Shown here: positions 6,855-63,065 of the stretch, piece by piece
How the letters are laid out: the number at the start of each line of letters is the position of its first letter
Numbering within the stretch: position 1 is the stretch's first letter
Assembly: GCA_002368355.1 (NCBI GenBank)
Contig: AP018281.1
Coordinates: 1,364,001-1,428,000 of the forward strand
Direction of reading: 5' to 3'
Length of the DNA: 64,000 nucleotides
From: Chondrocystis sp. NIES-4102
Lineage (GTDB): Bacteria; Cyanobacteriota; Cyanobacteriia; Cyanobacteriales; Xenococcaceae
Notes under the pieces: generated by a model
The model's input: only the letters and a program-made list of their open reading frames with translations
The model's database searches: none
Told to the model about the DNA's origin: nothing
Translations under genes and position numbers: made by a program

Positions 6855-8156
6855 TCAAAATAATTTGATCCCAAAAGTTATACCTAAAGCGATCGCACTT
6901 AATACCCAGCCTAACTTTAATTTTAGACTGATAAACTCTTTTGTTGGAATTTGTAGCCAAAAATAGGCAACAGTTATAACTTCTGCCACAGCAACAGCGC
7001 AGGCTATAATCACCGCTTCTCCTCTTCCCCATAACCAACCACTAGTAATGGTTAAGAAAGCAGGAATTATTATAGCGAGAATCGTCGCTCCAGTTTTTGC
7101 CTCCTGATCCGCTTGAGTAATTGCCACTGCACCTAATTGAGTTATGGTAATAGCAGCAGCAGCAATTATAGCAATGGTAATATTAGTGAAAGTTGGTTGT
7201 GTTTGGGTGTAGGCAAATTTAATTCCCCAAACTGCTACGCTACTTAAAATAAATATACTTGTTCCACCTATGGCAATTTTAGGTTGCTCGATTAAATCTA
7301 ATGGGGAGCTATTTATCTGGGTAATTTGAATGTTTTGATCTCGAGTCGAATCAATTTCCTCAATAGCTATTAAAGCGTTTCTTGCAACTACCGCAGTGGC
7401 AAACCGCTTACTTACTTGAGGCTCAATCATCTTTTCTAACCAAGCCAATAATTCTGCTTCTAATTCAGGTAGCAATGATTTTAAATCTAATTGATAGGGG
7501 GTGTCCGCCGATGTCTTTTCAAGTATTTGATTTATGTCTTTATGGGTTAAAAGACAGACAATAGTAACTCCCAGACTATAAATATCTGAAGCCAGAATTG
7601 GCTGGATAATTTGTTCTGGGGCGATAAATCCTGGTGTACCTTTAAAAACACTACTACCAGCTACCTCTCGACTGCCGAAACTGGCAAATCCAAAATCAAC
7701 TAAATAAACATTCAAACCCTCATCTAACAGAATATTATCTGGTTTTAGATCACGATGTAATATAGGCGGACTTTGTTGCTGTAGATAAATTAAAACTGAT
7801 AAAAGATCTAAAGCAACTTTTTTAACCTCAGTAAGGGTTAATTGTCTATATTCACTAAGTTTAGAAGCTGGAATATATTCTTGAATTAAACAAAAACCCG
7901 AATCAGTTTCCAAATGTGCAATATATTTAGGAATACTCGGATGATTTAATTGTTGCAAAACCTGAATTTCTTGCTGTGAGGCTTGATATCCTGACCATGT
8001 AGATCCAAATTGTGCAAAACAAAATTGTTTAATTACTACAGTTTGATGATCATTGAGACTTACCCCTTTCCAAGTAATTCTTCCTCCTTCTCGATTGCGC
8101 CCCAACTCCGTATCAATTTGATATCCGTAATGTCTTAAATCGGGATAATCGTTCAT
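6855..8156 (-). CDS. Ser/Thr protein kinase with C-terminal membrane segments
   Basis: This 433-residue Hanks-type kinase has an intact catalytic core. The Gly-rich loop is degenerate (LGRNREGGRITWKG); the ATP-binding lysine is K43 (VVIKQF), the alpha-C glutamate is near E63, the catalytic loop HRDLKPDN is at 134-141 (D136), DFG is at 154-156 and the activation segment ends GTPGFIAPEQ. After the kinase domain (about 12-270) come five or six hydrophobic helices (about 295-433), so it is a membrane kinase with the catalytic domain presumably cytoplasmic. There are no extracellular sensor repeats. The start is the ATG at 8154-8156. Substrates are unknown. Confidence 0.9.
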   Translation of the reverse strand: MNDYPDLRHYGYQIDTELGRNREGGRITWKGVSLNDHQTVVIKQFCFAQFGSTWSGYQASQQEIQVLQQLNHPSIPKYIAHLETDSGFCLIQEYIPASKLSEYRQLTLTEVKKVALDLLSVLIYLQQQSPPILHRDLKPDNILLDEGLNVYLVDFGFASFGSREVAGSSVFKGTPGFIAPEQIIQPILASDIYSLGVTIVCLLTHKDINQILEKTSADTPYQLDLKSLLPELEAELLAWLEKMIEPQVSKRFATAVVARNALIAIEEIDSTRDQNIQITQINSSPLDLIEQPKIAIGGTSIFILSSVAVWGIKFAYTQTQPTFTNITIAIIAAAAITITQLGAVAITQADQEAKTGATILAIIIPAFLTITSGWLWGRGEAVIIACAVAVAEVITVAYFWLQIPTKEFISLKLKLGWVLSAIALGITFGIKLF

Positions 8157-10888: not shown

Positions 10889-12511
10889 ATGATAAAAACT
10901 TTTCATCCTTCAGCAGCAGCACGTTTTAGAGAGTTACAAAATCAACTAAGAGAATGGACGAAATCGTCTGTGGAGGGTGAATTGTGGCGAAGTGTCGATA
11001 TATTTGAGGAGGATGACTACGATATCTTAGTTATTCCTTCTTTTAGTGTAGACCAGCAGGTGGGAGATAAAGTAGCAGGATTTTTACACTACGAAGAAAG
11101 ATTACTCTTTTCCCTCATACGTCTACGTAACCCTCTAACTAGGGTAATCTACATTACGGCTTTACCCCTTTGTCCAATAGTCATTGATTACTATCTGCAA
11201 TTGCTACCTGGAATTCCTTTTTCCCATGCTCGCGAGCGTCTACTATTAATTAGTACCTATGATGGTTCACTCAAACCTCTAACTCAAAAGATTTTAGAAC
11301 GTCCTCGACTAGTAGACAAAATTCGCCGTGCATTGCGTCCTAATAAATCTTATATGGTTTGTTATAATTCCACTGAACTTGAGCAAGAACTATCTTTAAA
11401 ACTAGATATCCCTCTTTTAGCAGCTTCGCCTGAATTCCTTTATTGGGGTTCAAAAAGTGGTAGTCGTGAAATCTTTGCCGAGGCTGGTATTCCTTATCCT
11501 GATGGTAGTTTTGGCGTTAATAATGTAGAAGATCTAGTTCTTGAATTACTTAATTTATGGCAAAGACAACCACATCTCAAACGTATTGTAGTTAAACTCA
11601 ACGAAGGTTTTTCAGGTGAAGGTAATGCGATTTTAGATCTTACCCCTATAAAAGAATACGCACCAAACCTATGCGAGCCTACAAAAACTAGTAATGCTTT
11701 GGCAAAACAACTAGAAAAAATGAATTTTCAGGGGCAAGGAGAAACCTGGGCAAGTTTTTCTGCTCGTATTCCCGAATTAGGGGCAATTGTTGAAGCTTTT
11801 GTCGAAGGAGAACACAAGCGATCGCCATCTGTACAGGGCTATATTCGACCTTCAGGAGAAGTAGAAATTGTTTCTACCCATGATCAAATTTTAGATGGTG
11901 ATGATGGGCAAGTATATCAAGGATGTTATTTTCCCGCCGATCCTGCTTACCGTTACCAAATACAAGAATTAGGGCTGAAGGTTGGGGAAGCACTAGCAGC
12001 TAAAGGCGCAATGGAGCGTTATGGAGTAGACTTTATGGCGGTTTTCGATCCTAAAACTAACCAATGGGATCTTCAAGCAATAGAAATAAACTTACGTAAA
12101 GGTGGCACAACTCACCCTTTTATGACCCTAAGATTATTAACTAACGGCACTTTTGATTACGATACAGGGAATTTTCTCACCCAACAAGGACAACCAAAGT
12201 ATTATATCGCCACGGATAATTTACAAAAGGATCAATATCGGGGTTTATTACCCAATGATTTAATGGATATTATTGCTCAAGAAAAATTACATTTCGACAG
12301 TATCAGTCTAACTGGCACAGTATTCCATTTAATGGGAACTTTATCTGAATACGGCAAACTCGGCTTAACTAGTATTGGTAATTCTTTGGCAGAGGCTCAA
12401 GATATATATGATCGCGTCGAAGCTGTATTAGATCGAGAAACAGCAGCCTTCGCCCCTACAGATGCAACCTCTGAAACTATATTGCCCATTAATTGGAGTA
12501 GTCATCAGTAA
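10889..12511 (+). CDS. ATP-grasp protein, PGM1-related peptide ligase type
   Basis: This 540-residue protein belongs to the ATP-grasp superfamily, which joins a carboxylate to an amine or similar nucleophile using ATP. The N-terminal about 170 residues carry conserved stretches such as DILVIPSFSVDQQVG and HYEERLLFSLIRLRNP, which are typical of cyanobacterial members annotated as PGM1-related peptide ligases. The ATP-grasp fold follows: GSREIFAEAGIPYPDGS, the ATP-lysine strand RIVVKLNEGFSGEGNAIL, and the metal-binding QAIEINLRKGGTTHPF. The start is the ATG at 10889. The substrate is unknown, and no peptide or carrier-protein gene is adjacent. Confidence 0.75.
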   Translation: MIKTFHPSAAARFRELQNQLREWTKSSVEGELWRSVDIFEEDDYDILVIPSFSVDQQVGDKVAGFLHYEERLLFSLIRLRNPLTRVIYITALPLCPIVIDYYLQLLPGIPFSHARERLLLISTYDGSLKPLTQKILERPRLVDKIRRALRPNKSYMVCYNSTELEQELSLKLDIPLLAASPEFLYWGSKSGSREIFAEAGIPYPDGSFGVNNVEDLVLELLNLWQRQPHLKRIVVKLNEGFSGEGNAILDLTPIKEYAPNLCEPTKTSNALAKQLEKMNFQGQGETWASFSARIPELGAIVEAFVEGEHKRSPSVQGYIRPSGEVEIVSTHDQILDGDDGQVYQGCYFPADPAYRYQIQELGLKVGEALAAKGAMERYGVDFMAVFDPKTNQWDLQAIEINLRKGGTTHPFMTLRLLTNGTFDYDTGNFLTQQGQPKYYIATDNLQKDQYRGLLPNDLMDIIAQEKLHFDSISLTGTVFHLMGTLSEYGKLGLTSIGNSLAEAQDIYDRVEAVLDRETAAFAPTDATSETILPINWSSHQ

Positions 12512-27513: not shown

Positions 27514-27801
27514 CCCCTTTACCTCCTAATATTTACTTAGAAAAGACTGTGTTACTGGTTACTAATTTGTTATCGATTGTATCGTAATGAACAAAAAAAA
27601 GTCAACACCTCTAATAAAAAAATATCTGAAGAAATTGCCAGGCAATATTTATTAAAAACCTTTTATTTAATAAATTATGATGGAAAAAAGATTAGGTCTT
27701 AAAAAGGATATATAGATACTTTCTTAAGTTAATGGTTGCTTATTTTTAGTTGCCATATAACTTTTTATAAGTCTATATAAATCTTGATCTCTGGAGCATT
27801 A

Positions 27802-58862: not shown

Positions 58863-59555
58863 TCAAACATTTACTAATTCTTCAGTTGTACGAAGGCTTT
58901 CAAGCTTATGCACTAGAGGAATTACATTACGACCAAAGGCAGGCAAATCATCGCTATAGTGTAAAAAGCCCCCAAGAATAAGGTCTACCCCTACTTCATG
59001 GAACTTTTGAATCTTTTCTGCTACTTGTTCTTTAGTCCCAATTAAGCCAGAGCGGAAACCGTCGTTATACTGCACTAAATCTTCAAAATTGGAATTTGCC
59101 CACATCCCCACTTTTTCGCTAGTAGAAGCACCTGCTTGTTTTACGGCATCCCCAAATCCTTTAACAGCTTCTTTATCTGCTTTAGCTATAATTTCTTGCA
59201 AGACAGCATGAGCCTCTTTTTGCGAATCTCGAACCAAAATAAAAGCATTCAAACCAAACTTAATTTTGCGTCCTTCTTTACGGGCTAAAGTAGATACTTC
59301 CTGGATCTGCTCTTTCACCCCCTCAACAGTGTTGCCATTCATAAAATACCAATCAGATACACGAGATGCCATAATGCGAGCAGCTTTGGAATTACCGCCT
59401 TGGAATATTTCTGGATAGGGATGTGCAACGGGTTTTGGTTTAACCCAACCGCCATTGATGCGGTAAAAATCGCCTCGAAAGTGGAACTCTTCATCACTCC
59501 ACATACCTTTTAAGACGCGGATAAATTCTTCCGAACGTCGATAGCGTTTATCATG
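58863..59555 (-). pseudogene. sfnG: 5'-truncated sfnG (dimethylsulfone monooxygenase)
   Basis: The frame encodes the C-terminal about 230 residues of SfnG, a flavin-dependent luciferase-like monooxygenase that converts dimethylsulfone to methanesulfinate. Matching blocks are HDKRYRRSEEFIRVLKG, YPEIFQGGNSKAARIMASR, SDWYFMNGNTVEGVKEQI, VGMWANSNFEDLVQYNDGF and GLIGTKEQVAEKI. Full-length SfnG has about 360 residues. Homology stops at the histidine at 59553-59555, and an in-frame TAG lies at 59565-59567. The first about 130 residues are absent and replaced by mobile-element DNA. An internal ATG at 59502-59504 could start a shorter peptide lacking most of the TIM-barrel N-half. Confidence 0.75.
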
Positions 59556-59603
59556 AAAATGCGACTACAGTACGAAGCCCATACACCAAGGGTTTTACAG
59601 CTT

Positions 59604-59709: not shown

Positions 59710-59937
59710 TTATTCTGTGTAGTCTTCATTTTCTGGGTCTCTAACAAATTTTGCAGTAAAATCTATTCTTGCTTTTTTTCTTCTTGGATAAAAGTAAAGT
59801 TCTACTTGGTCAAGCCCTATAAGACAGTCCTGTAAGCTTTTATTCCTGTAGGCTGCTAAAAGCCTTAAAGCTTGGTGCATTTGAGGGGTAACAGTTATCT
59901 TGATTAGCTTGTTTTTTCCCTGTTCATTCATACTCAC
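59710..59937 (-). CDS. Small protein with ribbon-helix-helix-like N-terminus
   Basis: This 75-residue protein has a segment KLIKITVTPQMHQALRLLAA followed by YRNKSLQDCLIGLDQVELYF. The strand-helix-helix pattern (ITVTPQMHQALRLLAAYRNKS) resembles CopG/Arc-type DNA-binding proteins, often copy-number or partition regulators on plasmids. The C-terminal part is basic, then acidic. The start could be the GTG at 59935-59937 or the ATG at 59929-59931. One of the 30-bp palindromes (59985-60014) lies about 50 bp upstream and could be its operator. The call is tentative. Confidence 0.45.
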   Translation of the reverse strand: MSMNEQGKNKLIKITVTPQMHQALRLLAAYRNKSLQDCLIGLDQVELYFYPRRKKARIDFTAKFVRDPENEDYTE

Positions 59938-59968: not shown

Positions 59969-60157
59969 TTAGTAGGCATATATAAAAACGTTATACATTA
60001 ACGTATAACGTTTTAGGTAACGTCCCCTACTTCTGTACATATTTCCGTCTAGACGAATTGGTATATACAAATTACTAAGTAGCTCTATTAATTCCTCACC
60101 AGCCCCCAGGGGTTCATATCGCCTAAATTCGGCGGTCTTTATATAAGCTATTTCCAC
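59969..60157 (-). CDS. Doubtful small ORF across a palindrome
   Basis: This 62-codon frame has a plausible helical N-part (LGAGEELIELLSNLYIPIRL), but its last about 12 codons run through the 30-bp palindrome and give an odd Tyr-rich end. I recognise no family and it may not be translated. Confidence 0.2.
   Translation of the reverse strand: MEIAYIKTAEFRRYEPLGAGEELIELLSNLYIPIRLDGNMYRSRGRYLKRYTLMYNVFIYAY
59985..60014 (-). repeat. 30-bp palindromic site, copy 1
   Basis: Twelve-base arms AAAACGTTATAC / GTATAACGTTTT surround a 6-bp spacer. On the minus strand the left flank is CGTTACCT and the right flank TATATATGCC, shared with copies 2-4. Confidence 0.9.
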
Positions 60158-60228
60158 TACCCCCTCCCCAGCCCTAGGGGCTACCAGGGAATGCCACCCG
60201 ATAACCCCTACTTAACTATCTGTTAGGT

Positions 60229-60390
60229 TCAGTTAGCTAGAGCTTTTAGGGCTAATTCAATCTTTTTGATTTCATGCTGACGCTCTGTCAGTAATGCTAG
60301 CCTTTCGTCCTTATCGCCAGGGTCAGCAATCATTGAAACCATCTTTATCTGTAGGTCGTTATTTTTTTGGTATTGCTCACAGGCGGACAA
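60229..60390 (-). CDS. Small helical protein, unrecognised
   Basis: This frame of about 53 codons is too short to stand out but looks coding: SACEQYQKNNDLQIKMVSMI, then ADPGDKDERLALLTERQHE and IKKIELALKALAN. It is strongly amphipathic and helical. The start is uncertain (TTG at 60388-60390; the frame is open for 11 more codons upstream). It could be a small element-encoded accessory protein or the tail of a decayed gene. Confidence 0.35.
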   Translation of the reverse strand: MSACEQYQKNNDLQIKMVSMIADPGDKDERLALLTERQHEIKKIELALKALAN

Positions 60391-60423
60391 GATATAGGTG
60401 TTGTCTAAATTAGCCAGAGATGA

Positions 60424-61151
60424 TTAAGAAATAACGTTGAAGATAACGAGTAGATATATAAGTAGGTATCTCAAGTACTATAGGTTGAGAACGTAAATAC
60501 TCATGTAAGTCTTTCTACTGTTCATTAAAAAGAAGTAATCTAGAATGAGCTTTATATCGCTAGTAGAGACAGTCTAATATCTTTTATGACTCTTCAAATA
60601 AACAAAAAGGTTAGACGCTTATTTTTCACATCTGTTATTGACTAAAACACATCCTACCAAAAACCAATTAAATACTACTGCTATGTATCTATCGACAATT
60701 AGTAAAGACGATAGATGTTATATACCCCTACATTTAGTCATTTCTAATTAACGTCCATTACTTACAAAAGCAATAAAACTAACCCTTACTCTTAACGAAA
60801 TAACCATAGACTCAGAAGATATACAAATAAAGCTCAAACCCTCAACCAACCAAAACAGATAGAATAAATAACCGCATGGCTTAATATCCAACAGATACAA
60901 AATAGTCCCATGTTCCAATTGTTTTAAAAGAAGGTTAGTTTATTACAACTAACCCGTAATCTGAACCTACTCATAGATATATTAGTCAGCTACCAATAAA
61001 ACCAACAAAAGCAATATCTCTAAGTACACTTACTATGAATTCATAGCTGGTCAATTAACGAGCATCTAGATGCTTAATGTAAGCTCAATAGTACTTAATT
61101 AACCTTACAGACTGTAGGTTATATTCACCCTAATCAAGATAAATTACAGCT
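60424..61151. other. Gene-poor element region
   Basis: More than 700 bp of AT-rich DNA without a convincing ORF. It includes one copy of TTACAGACTGTAGGT (61105-61119), a dyad that recurs at 62657-62671 on the other side of the rep gene. It could contain a replication origin, but nothing decisive is visible. Confidence 0.4.
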
Positions 61152-61190
61152 AGATAAAGACTGGCAATAATGTTTATTCAAGTTGCCAGT
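61152..61190 (-). terminator. Terminator after the replication gene
   Basis: On the minus strand ACTGGCAA and TTGCCAGT form a perfect 8-bp stem with a 15-nt loop, followed by CTTTATC. It lies about 70 nt beyond the rep stop. Confidence 0.55.
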
Positions 61191-61261
61191 ACTTAATACC
61201 TGTATACCCTTCAAACAATGCTTAATGTATCCTTATAGTCATCTTTAACCCTCAAGATAAA

Positions 61262-62260
61262 TTAATTATTATCAAGTAGCTGATTATCAATAGTTACTAA
61301 TACCTTATCTATAAAATCTTGCCAGAAAAATAACCTATCAGTTCTTTTCTTGGTCATATTCTTCTGACTGCTAATATTATCTTTATTCCTAAAGTCTATG
61401 CTAGATAAAGCAGCTTCAGCTAAGACTATAGCAAAACTTACAATTAAATCATTAGCTAGAGTCTTATCCACTTCTAAGTTAGCTATTTGATTAAATAACC
61501 CTTGGGCTTTTTGCCTTTTCAATTCAGCTTCATATCTGACAAAATCTTTACCCTTGGTGTAGATTCTGATAAATAAACTTGAACGTCTAGAACCTATGGC
61601 TAAAGTACCTTCAAACTGATTATCAGTGATTTTGAAATAGCTATCATCTATTACCGAAAACCCAAAATTGTAACCAAGCTTAAAAGCTTTTTTCATCTCA
61701 ATAACAGGTATAAGCTTATGTGAATAATCATCTATGGCTACATCAATCCGATGGCATTTAAACGTCCAATTAATGTTTAGGTAGCTAATAACCTTTTGCT
61801 GTTTTAGTAGGCTTAATTTGGCAAAATAAGCCCCTGATAGGTCAAGCATTATGTCATAGACGTGTCTAATGTTTTTACCTCGATTTTTGGCTTTCTTTGT
61901 ATAACCTAAAGTTATTCCTGAACTTGATGTAATTATGTTTTGATATTTCTTACTTTGGGGCATCTTAGGGTCAGGATGCCAAGGCTTGTTTATTGTTTTT
62001 GTTTCCTGCTTATCAAACACAAAATCTACTAGTGAGTCAAAAGATTTCTTAGTTAAATTATTACTACTTAAACGTAGATAATCTAAGTGAATAAAATTCT
62101 TGAGAAATTTAAATTGGGAGTAAGTTTTAGTAGGTAAAAGATAGTTAAAGCTATTAGTAGTAAGAGAAAGAGTATTATGAAGGGATAGCGTGGTATTACT
62201 AGAACAATTTTCTACAACTAATAACTGCTTGTTGCTGCTTTGGATATTTGGTTTTATCAT
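61262..62260 (-). CDS. Replication initiation factor (Rep_trans / RstA type)
   Basis: This 332-residue protein resembles rolling-circle replication initiators of the Rep_trans family (pT181 RepC, phage RstA). Typical blocks are HVYDIMLDLSGAYF, FKCHRIDVAIDDYS (conserved R-D-D pattern), FEGTLAIGSRRSSLFIRIYT and KGKDFVRYEAELKRQKA. The family nicks the double-strand origin with a tyrosine, and Tyr in RIYTKG lies in the expected region. The N-terminal about 100 residues are Asn/Ser-rich. It implies that the surrounding DNA replicates or once replicated as a plasmid or phage. The start is the ATG at 62258-62260; a terminator follows. Confidence 0.65.
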   Translation of the reverse strand: MIKPNIQSSNKQLLVVENCSSNTTLSLHNTLSLTTNSFNYLLPTKTYSQFKFLKNFIHLDYLRLSSNNLTKKSFDSLVDFVFDKQETKTINKPWHPDPKMPQSKKYQNIITSSSGITLGYTKKAKNRGKNIRHVYDIMLDLSGAYFAKLSLLKQQKVISYLNINWTFKCHRIDVAIDDYSHKLIPVIEMKKAFKLGYNFGFSVIDDSYFKITDNQFEGTLAIGSRRSSLFIRIYTKGKDFVRYEAELKRQKAQGLFNQIANLEVDKTLANDLIVSFAIVLAEAALSSIDFRNKDNISSQKNMTKKRTDRLFFWQDFIDKVLVTIDNQLLDNN

Positions 62261-62439
62261 GATGCTTAGTGATTAAAAGTGAGTTCTCTTGACAGGGCTT
62301 ATTTTTTTTTGTCTGTTTACCCTAACCTAGTATTCCTGTACTGTTATAGCTGCTTAACTTTAAGCTGTCGAATTAGGATACAAGTACTCGTAGAAATTGG
62401 AACTAAGCTTTACTTACAGTTACCCTATACCCGTTACCT

Positions 62440-62469
62440 AAAACGTAATATAAAAACGTATTACGTTTT
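62440..62469 (+). repeat. 30-bp palindromic site, copy 2
   Basis: Eleven-base arms AAAACGTAATA / TATTACGTTTT surround an 8-bp spacer. Left flank CCGTTACCT, right flank TAGATAC. Confidence 0.9.
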
Positions 62470-62575
62470 TAGATACCCTCCCTTACTCACTAATTACCTT
62501 AGTTAGATTCTCTTGGGTATGTATAAAAAAATACTTATTTACTTTGTAGATTAACCACTAGTGTACCCGTTACCT

Positions 62576-62605
62576 AAATAGTGACACTTTAAAGTGACAC
62601 TATTT
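62576..62605 (+). repeat. 30-bp palindromic site, copy 3
   Basis: AAATAGTG-A-CACTTT pairs with AAAGTG-A-CACTATTT, a full 30-bp palindrome with one A/A mismatch per arm. Left flank CCCGTTACCT, right flank TATATATGCC. Confidence 0.9.
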
Positions 62606-62656
62606 TATATATGCCCCCTTACATTGACTTGAGATGAATTTAAGCTTTTTGTTAGG

Positions 62657-62671
62657 TTACAGACTGTAGGT
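62657..62671 (+). repeat. 15-bp dyad repeat flanking rep (second copy)
   Basis: TTACAGACTGTAGGT is identical to 61105-61119. The core TACAG-A-CTGTA is an inverted repeat. The two copies bracket the rep gene, as operator or replication sites would. Confidence 0.6.
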
Positions 62672-63035
62672 ATTTCAGATAACATTCTTTAGGGGCTTGT
62701 TATTGGTTATTTTACGTCTTCGCTCTCGTTCGTCCAGTATCTCCGTTTCACCTCGACTCTACGAGCTAGTACTTGACTAACTATCGCTTAGACTATTTTT
62801 TTATTTAGGCAGCCCTCAAGGAATATTATCACTCATTATATATGCGACCTATAGGACGTAATTTGATTAGAACGTACTTTAGCAGTCACAACTATTAGCA
62901 TCAGTATAATGATTATTGATTATCTGATGTATTTTAGTATTATCGTTTGTTACTAGCTTGAGATGATTGAGCAACTAATAATTGAAACTAAAAAAGAACT
63001 TAGTACTGTTTTGGGTGAGTTGGTAGGCGTATCTA

Positions 63036-63065
63036 AAATAGTTGCACGTTTTTGTGCAACTATTT
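63036..63065 (-). repeat. 30-bp palindromic site, copy 4
   Basis: Twelve-base arms AAATAGTTGCAC / GTGCAACTATTT surround a 6-bp spacer. On the minus strand the left flank is CCATTACCT and the right flank TAGATACGCC. Confidence 0.9.

Follow-up and report, generated by a model that had tools for sequence, protein, structure and literature searches.

An integrated element with four palindromes in Chondrocystis

The stretch of DNA analysed here, hereafter the window, comprises 64,000 nucleotides from the cyanobacterium Chondrocystis sp. NIES-4102 (contig AP018281.1, positions 1,364,001 to 1,428,000). Near its right end, an element of ~5.4 kb sits within a gene encoding a luciferase-like monooxygenase, between two copies of the sequence TTATCATGA. 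The element encodes a replication initiation factor (Rep), an integrase (Int) and a small ribbon-helix-helix-like (RHH-like) protein, and it contains four palindromes (Table 1). Comparison with related elements places these palindromes in a family of probable docking sites for proteins, which are present in small mobile elements and in unusual prophage-like elements of cyanobacteria. The structure predicted for the RHH-like protein is of the type E-H-H, with low confidence (mean predicted local distance difference test score, pLDDT, of 61), and neither Pfam nor NCBIfam provided an above-cut-off name for the RHH-like proteins or for the larger integrases.

Table 1. Features of the element in the window; x is the base that follows GT in the half-site y-GT-x described in the text.
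Feature	Position	Strand	Remarks
9-bp direct repeat TTATCATGA, left copy, probable attL	59548..59556		Read by eye; right copy at 64955-64963, beyond the window
RHH-like protein, 75 aa	59710..59937	-	Weak Pfam RHH matches, E 0.007 and 0.012, below cut-offs
Site 1	59985..60014	-	Two boxes, half-site x code TAAT; ~48-bp dyad including flanks, 59976-60023
Rep_trans replication initiation factor, 332 aa	61262..62260	-	PF02486, E 3e-7, 30.6 bits against a cut-off of 29.6
Site 2	62440..62469	+	x code AAAA; centre 194 bp upstream of Rep start
Site 3	62576..62605	+	x code GGGG; same sequence in all three element copies
Site 4	63036..63065	-	x code TGGT; ~315 bp past the 3' end of Int
Tyrosine-recombinase-like integrase (Int), 493 aa	63381..64000, on to 64862 beyond the window	-	XerA_Arch and GmtY matches weak, below cut-off; signature residues seen by eye

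An initial annotation, made from the sequence of the window, had described four 30-bp palindromes with common flanks. We verified all four, together with the flanks, TTACCT to one side of the palindrome and TA(T/G)ATA(C/T) to the other, which are themselves weakly dyad-symmetric (RCRT at -24 to -21, AYGC at +21 to +24). The pairing had been called exact; the stems do covary, but site 3 contains one A.A mismatch, and site 2 a T.G apposition and unpaired central bases. When the window was scanned for palindromes of 28-34 bp with a score of at least 10, only these four sites and an AT-rich palindrome at 27647 were returned. Since ten simulations of the window under a first-order Markov model yielded 0-3 palindromes per run, four of them within 3.1 kb, all with flanks of the form TTACCT...TA(T/G)ATA, are not attributable to chance.

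The same genome holds the element three times, as copy A (in the window), B and C, with an identical Rep sequence in each. A search of this genome with a model of the site gave at least 17 matches, 12 of them full-length and all within the three element loci, and the remaining five are partial matches on the opposite strand of those same sites. (Genome searches with site models scored the best 150 candidates per genome, and site counts are lower bounds.) Two sites are common to all three copies, and site 1 has three different stems, one in each. Between positions 2150 and 5400 of locus L009 (~3.2 kb), copies A and B show a single difference. Elsewhere, the RHH open reading frame (ORF) of copy A has been wholly exchanged in copy B for an unlike 75-aa ORF (window 59710-59937 versus L010 12790-13017), site 1 and its surroundings differ, and the integrase has diverged. 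Copy C carries a different integrase of 469 aa. A region of ~1 kb that lacks a 60-aa ORF (window 60200-61260) is almost identical in all three copies.

Each palindrome is composed of four half-sites

To examine the architecture of the stem we used 40 distinct sites, obtained from 51 places, of which 39 were hand-picked from 77 two-strand matches (L036 8168 was dropped) and 12 are those of the Chondrocystis genome itself. In most sites each arm of the palindrome is itself an odd palindrome of the form GT-x-N-x'-AC, and a site thus contains four half-sites, y-GT-x, arranged as two boxes that lie 13-14 bp apart within a dyad of ~48 bp. The GT is retained in 135 of 160 half-sites. The base x is equal in all four half-sites of 33 of the 40 sites, compared with a mean of 14.9 and a maximum of 24 in 5000 permutations that ignore ancestry, in which the inner pair was shuffled among sites with the hairpin pairing kept. 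The corresponding count for y is 28/40 (permutation mean 19.5, maximum 27). The words differ between sites and between elements.

From arm to arm, x is complementary in 38/40 sites for the outer half-sites and in 37/40 for the inner ones, y is complementary in 38/40 and 30/40, respectively, and inside one arm x matches x' in 35/40 and 34/40. The box centre, N, is nearly free, being complementary in 25/40 and identical in 12/40 sites, so that it is unpaired in 15/40 despite its position in mid-stem. Counting outwards from the dyad, the innermost base is paired in 20/40 sites, the second in 33/40 and the third in 31/40. Because the model search rewards pairing of the arms and of the box centres, rather than four-fold identity as such, these pairing rates are biased upwards, but pairing of the box centres is low nonetheless. 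The main constraint on the stem does not look like that of a hairpin. This is also apparent from two loci in one genome, L093 and L097, which are 95.8% identical over 1.1 kb including a site: their 27-mers are separated by precisely four substitutions, one for each half-site, with the box centres unchanged, and the left flank adjoining the 27-mer differs too. A four-fold change of this kind exceeds the need of a hairpin, since a hairpin requires two-fold changes only.

Identity of the half-sites might alternatively arise by mutation, if template switching or slippage among the four repeats homogenised the arms of ordinary binding sites in which identity is not under selection. The stems do evolve fast, as seen from the variants of site 1 within one genome, and copies of box centres are found in inverted as well as direct form. 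However, such copying should extend to the box centre, which is instead the least alike position of the box, and the difference between L093 and L097 involves the four x bases and not the centres. We consider this explanation improbable.

Sites in related elements and their relation to Rep

Relatives of Rep were detected in 12 of the 388 genomes of the order, the Chondrocystis genome included. The Rep query found none in the phage collection or in IMG/VR, two small, distant plasmids in the plasmid collection, and in the genome contig collection two loci that match contigs of genomes G003 and G011. Three of the Rep relatives (58, 54 and, in L041, 32% identical to Rep of the window) and a broken Rep in genome G007 accompany palindromes of 27-29 bp, which differ in their outer and inner bases and have a flank close to AGATACGC. 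The Rep gene in G007 is present as two pieces in different frames (L039, ~7130-8121). Since MAFFT did not keep the register in alignments that combined sites of 27, 29 and 30 bp, two separate site models were built, from alignments that exclude site g2c and the tentative sites g13 and g22.

A strict site pattern matched only the Chondrocystis genome among 60 genomes. A loose pattern (TACCT N22-32 AKATAYSC) was discarded as it matched all 27 genomes of the family and thus gave no discrimination. The site model of the relatives matched at least 9 of these 27 genomes, with many matches in loci that lack this Rep. Genome G006 carries sites, and the Rep search gave no match there; in G007 site-bearing elements lie far from the only Rep match of that genome. 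The sites in G006 and in these elements of G007 stand apart from a cognate Rep, with which a double-strand origin would be expected to occur. The initial annotation had placed the sites exclusively in the element that carries Rep, which is correct for the Chondrocystis genome but not for its relatives, where phage-like elements without this Rep possess them. It had also anticipated compensatory stem changes in related elements; these are present, with near-fixed length and flanks, and its proposal of a covarying stem therefore survives. Our literature searches found no description of such sites.

The reading preferred in the initial annotation was that the palindromes are recognised as folded structures, either single-stranded or cruciform, as in recombination sites or replication hairpins. 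Several observations agree with this. Pairing is kept while the stem varies, x being paired from arm to arm in 37-38 of 40 sites, and two separate alignments, one of 7 and one of 8 sites, have 94.5% and 93.8% of their cells paired, with covariation scores of 0.425 and 0.580, whereas slid partners score no more than 0.088 and 0.125. The sites fold as single-stranded DNA better than shuffled sequences (z -3.8 to -7.4), and the element encodes a Rep of the rolling-circle type. In addition, the Fischerella plasmid pFIS3754-01 (NZ_AP017306.1), a free plasmid of 2.8 kb that encodes a Rep of the Rep_trans type, contains two 24-bp perfect palindromes with unlike stems (TTGC.....TTATAA.....GCAA; L051 1942-1965 and 2107-2130) and conserved flanks of 15-20 nt, for which the hairpin reading is still the simplest. 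However, a hairpin does not need half-sites that are identical four-fold, it would be interrupted in mid-stem in the 15 sites with unpaired box centres, and bases close to the dyad, which would be free in a hairpin loop, are paired. Site 2, as an isolated strand, prefers a different hairpin. The sites also occur without this Rep, with several types of integrase and in both orientations. Recognition of a folded strand, and Rep hairpins likewise, are therefore disfavoured, and we regard them as unlikely; operator sites, offered as a second option in the initial annotation, fit the data better.

Sites are located between genes

When the centres of 43 sites (copies B and C excluded) were compared with ORFs of at least 100 aa, none fell 20 bp or more within one, whereas 27.5 would be expected for random positions taken from the same stretch plus 3 kb. 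Many sites follow stop codons, with the centre located 12-15 bp after the stop of a gene of 82-96 aa at five loci, 27 bp after a 133-aa gene at two loci, 30 bp after a 777-aa gene, 32, 47 and 80 bp after Rep, and 49 bp after an integrase. Others precede genes: the centre is 43 bp from the start of the RHH-like gene in L106 and L107, and 62 and 69 bp from it in copies A and B, and it is 194-195 bp from the start of Rep in the Chondrocystis element and in L041, where the site is chimeric. The orientation of the sites relative to genes varies, and the asymmetric flank points both ways.

Location 12-49 bp past stop codons would suit transcription terminators or RNA hairpins at gene ends. However, a terminator scan showed that none of the four window sites satisfies stem and T-run criteria, and Rfam gave no match at gathering score. 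Together with the flank, which faces either way relative to genes, and a site between divergent genes (L093 10070), this renders a role in termination very improbable.

The intergenic placement would also be consistent with recombination sites at the borders of modules, at which cassettes are swapped between elements. Homology between copies A and C stops at a distance of 39.5 bp from the site 1 centre, and that between L036 and L037 stops at the dyad of a site (L037 ~7324). Chimeric sites, the halves of which resemble different site types, are present at L041 6202-6258 and L095 365-421. On the other hand, 14 of 179 alignment ends fall within 50 nt of a site compared with 7.3 expected, a difference that is not significant (p 0.06) in a test where many rows are non-independent and ends with collinear continuation, including the site-4 end of A versus C, were excluded. 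Moreover, repeats recombine anyway, and the elements encode several different integrases. Attachment sites for the integrase would be direct repeats at the element ends, but the att repeat is elsewhere (59548), with the nearest palindrome ~430 bp from the TTATCATGA repeat. The attC sites of integrons have variable stems and conserved ends and lie near the 3' ends of genes. The present sites, unlike attC, do not maintain a fixed orientation at the 3' end of cassettes, are not associated with a demonstrated cassette array and have stems that are constrained four-fold rather than two-fold. We consider a role at module borders quite unlikely.

A family of phage-like elements and its tandem boxes

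The integrase of copy C resembles the 469-aa integrase of the phage-like elements in L093, L097 and L106. L106 and L107 encode a lysozyme, identified by a Pfam match on the L106 piece, and an ATPase, in which a P-loop was seen by eye and for which PHROG matches are weak. The lysozyme of L106 is divided over two overlapping ORFs (11715-12366). These loci belong to a family of integrated phage-like elements of ~15 kb (L106 2801-17521, L107, L093, L100, L101 and relatives of the ATPase), the gene content of which includes a lysozyme, the ATPase, a GemA-like protein, an RHH-like protein and a large coiled-coil protein. The ATPase is found in 29 of the 388 genomes of the order, representing 20 genera. 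It has no match in the INPHARED phages, and a single IMG/VR scan, sensitive to close relatives only, yielded no confirmed match.

To survey more distant elements we inspected 19 stretches around ATPase matches and another around a match of the site model, 20 in all. Four of the 19 contain their own repeated tandem palindromic boxes, with a period of 12-13 bp, in 3-5 places and in arrays of 2-4 boxes. L155 has pairs of GTTTGATTCAAAC in four places and one pair with GTTTCA; in L144, two places have three matching boxes each and two further places have a pair of boxes spaced 24 bp apart; L153 has arrays of AAAACGTTTCTG, as direct tandem boxes, in three places; and L143 has ATTATCCAAT boxes in three places. 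L140 and L141 each contain two similar palindromes ~55 bp apart, and L142 contains some boxes. The mean number of matches in shuffled sequence was 0-0.7 for L155, L143, L153 and L140, 2.25 for L144 and 1.7 for L142. Of 17 chosen box positions from five loci, one falls within an ORF of 100 aa or more, compared with 12.3 expected. The remaining stretches show fewer palindromes or none, and no evident repeated word. The direct tandem boxes of L153 and the three-box arrays of L144 are further evidence against recognition of a hairpin.

Discussion

Four identical half-sites, words that differ between elements, intergenic placement and a site beside an exchanged RHH-like gene together lead us to infer that the palindromes are dispersed repressor operators. 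We lean towards a model in which these operators are element-specific and work in the manner of mycobacteriophage stoperators, with a putative RHH-class protein perhaps binding to them. Each palindrome would constitute a double operator, in which two adjacent boxes provide four copies of the word y-GT-x for a dimeric or tetrameric DNA-binding protein, perhaps of the RHH class, bound between transcription units. The gene for this protein would most likely be located in the element itself or in a co-resident related element. Binding would keep the integrated element silent, both at promoters and through roadblocks at gene ends, and the words would diverge between sites and elements as the specificity of the repressor, and hence the immunity type, diverges. 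The sites may thereby let a silencing protein distinguish one element from another. The stem would resemble a covarying hairpin because all four half-sites must change together with specificity.

Repressors of the RHH class such as MetJ, CopG and Arc recognise tandem palindromic operators with boxes of ~8-13 bp, usually at one promoter. The present sites are likewise arrays of short palindromic boxes, and an RHH-like gene adjoins a site in copies A and B, L106 and L107.

Two studies of Cluster A mycobacteriophages (PMC6550527, PMC9283540) describe stoperators as 20-30 asymmetric sites per genome, each of 13-14 bp without dyad symmetry and oriented with transcription. The repressor binds to them as a monomer and also acts to block elongation. 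Stoperators have a consensus specific to a phage group and include a site beside the repressor gene (PMC6550527, PMC9283540); our sites likewise occur in several copies per genome and would resemble them in these two respects. Most stoperators are described there as not promoter-associated (PMC6550527, PMC9283540), and the sites reported here are dispersed between genes. They differ from stoperators in being dyads of ~48 bp with four half-sites, of which 2-5 were found per element, in both orientations; because of this dyad symmetry and variable orientation we do not class them as stoperators. In a report on the Nostoc cyanophages A-1 and N-1, repeated motifs are described as lying typically between ORFs (21 in N-1) with inconsistent orientation, and its authors suggest that they may be stoperators (PMC4916379). 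As described there, these motifs are set apart from our sites by their asymmetry, an 11-bp conserved region in N-1 and the size of the phages, 65-68 kb (PMC4916379).

Several observations weigh against dispersed operators. No protein was seen in common to all elements, and a single Rep element holds several words, so that either one protein of relaxed specificity or more than one protein would have to be involved. A site consensus of the stoperator kind would be expected to diverge together with its repressor; the RHH ORF and the stem of site 1 differ between copies A and B, but sites 2-4 are unchanged. In copy C there is no ORF of at least 30 aa within 0.7 kb beyond site 1, and sites 3 and 4 have no ORF start or end within the distance limits that we used. 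Of the six sites without self-symmetric boxes, four keep perfect arm-to-arm symmetry that includes the box centre, and pairing may therefore still matter; the palindromes of pFIS3754-01 also lack box symmetry. Finally, related sites are not independent, and the permutations of half-sites take no account of ancestry.

The distribution of words suggests a more speculative scheme, which we think unlikely, in which the Rep elements act as satellites of, or compete with, a cyanobacterial prophage family that is as yet undescribed, and mixed operator words let the repressors of several immunity types silence or release them. Judged by x, four of five phage-like elements with at least two scored sites have one word per element (L093, L100, L101 and L106, where one half-site deviates; not L107), and six of seven Rep elements have mixed words (A, B, C, L036, L038 and L041; not L039). 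This count leaves out L104 (two words, at an unclassified contig end) and covers few elements, some of them copies of each other, which weakens the scheme, and the absence of an ATPase match from the Chondrocystis genome counts against it.

Our analysis also carries a caution for the study of DNA palindromes, since arm-to-arm covariation can stem from repeated half-sites and not from folding. If the sites are indeed dispersed operators, a broad family of phage-like elements that integrate into cyanobacterial genomes, and that we did not find in the collections searched, would exist, and the regulation of these elements would be legible in the genome as dispersed four-part operators. Superinfection immunity and its evolution would then become testable in these elements, raising the question of how four half-sites, and several sites, shift their specificity together.

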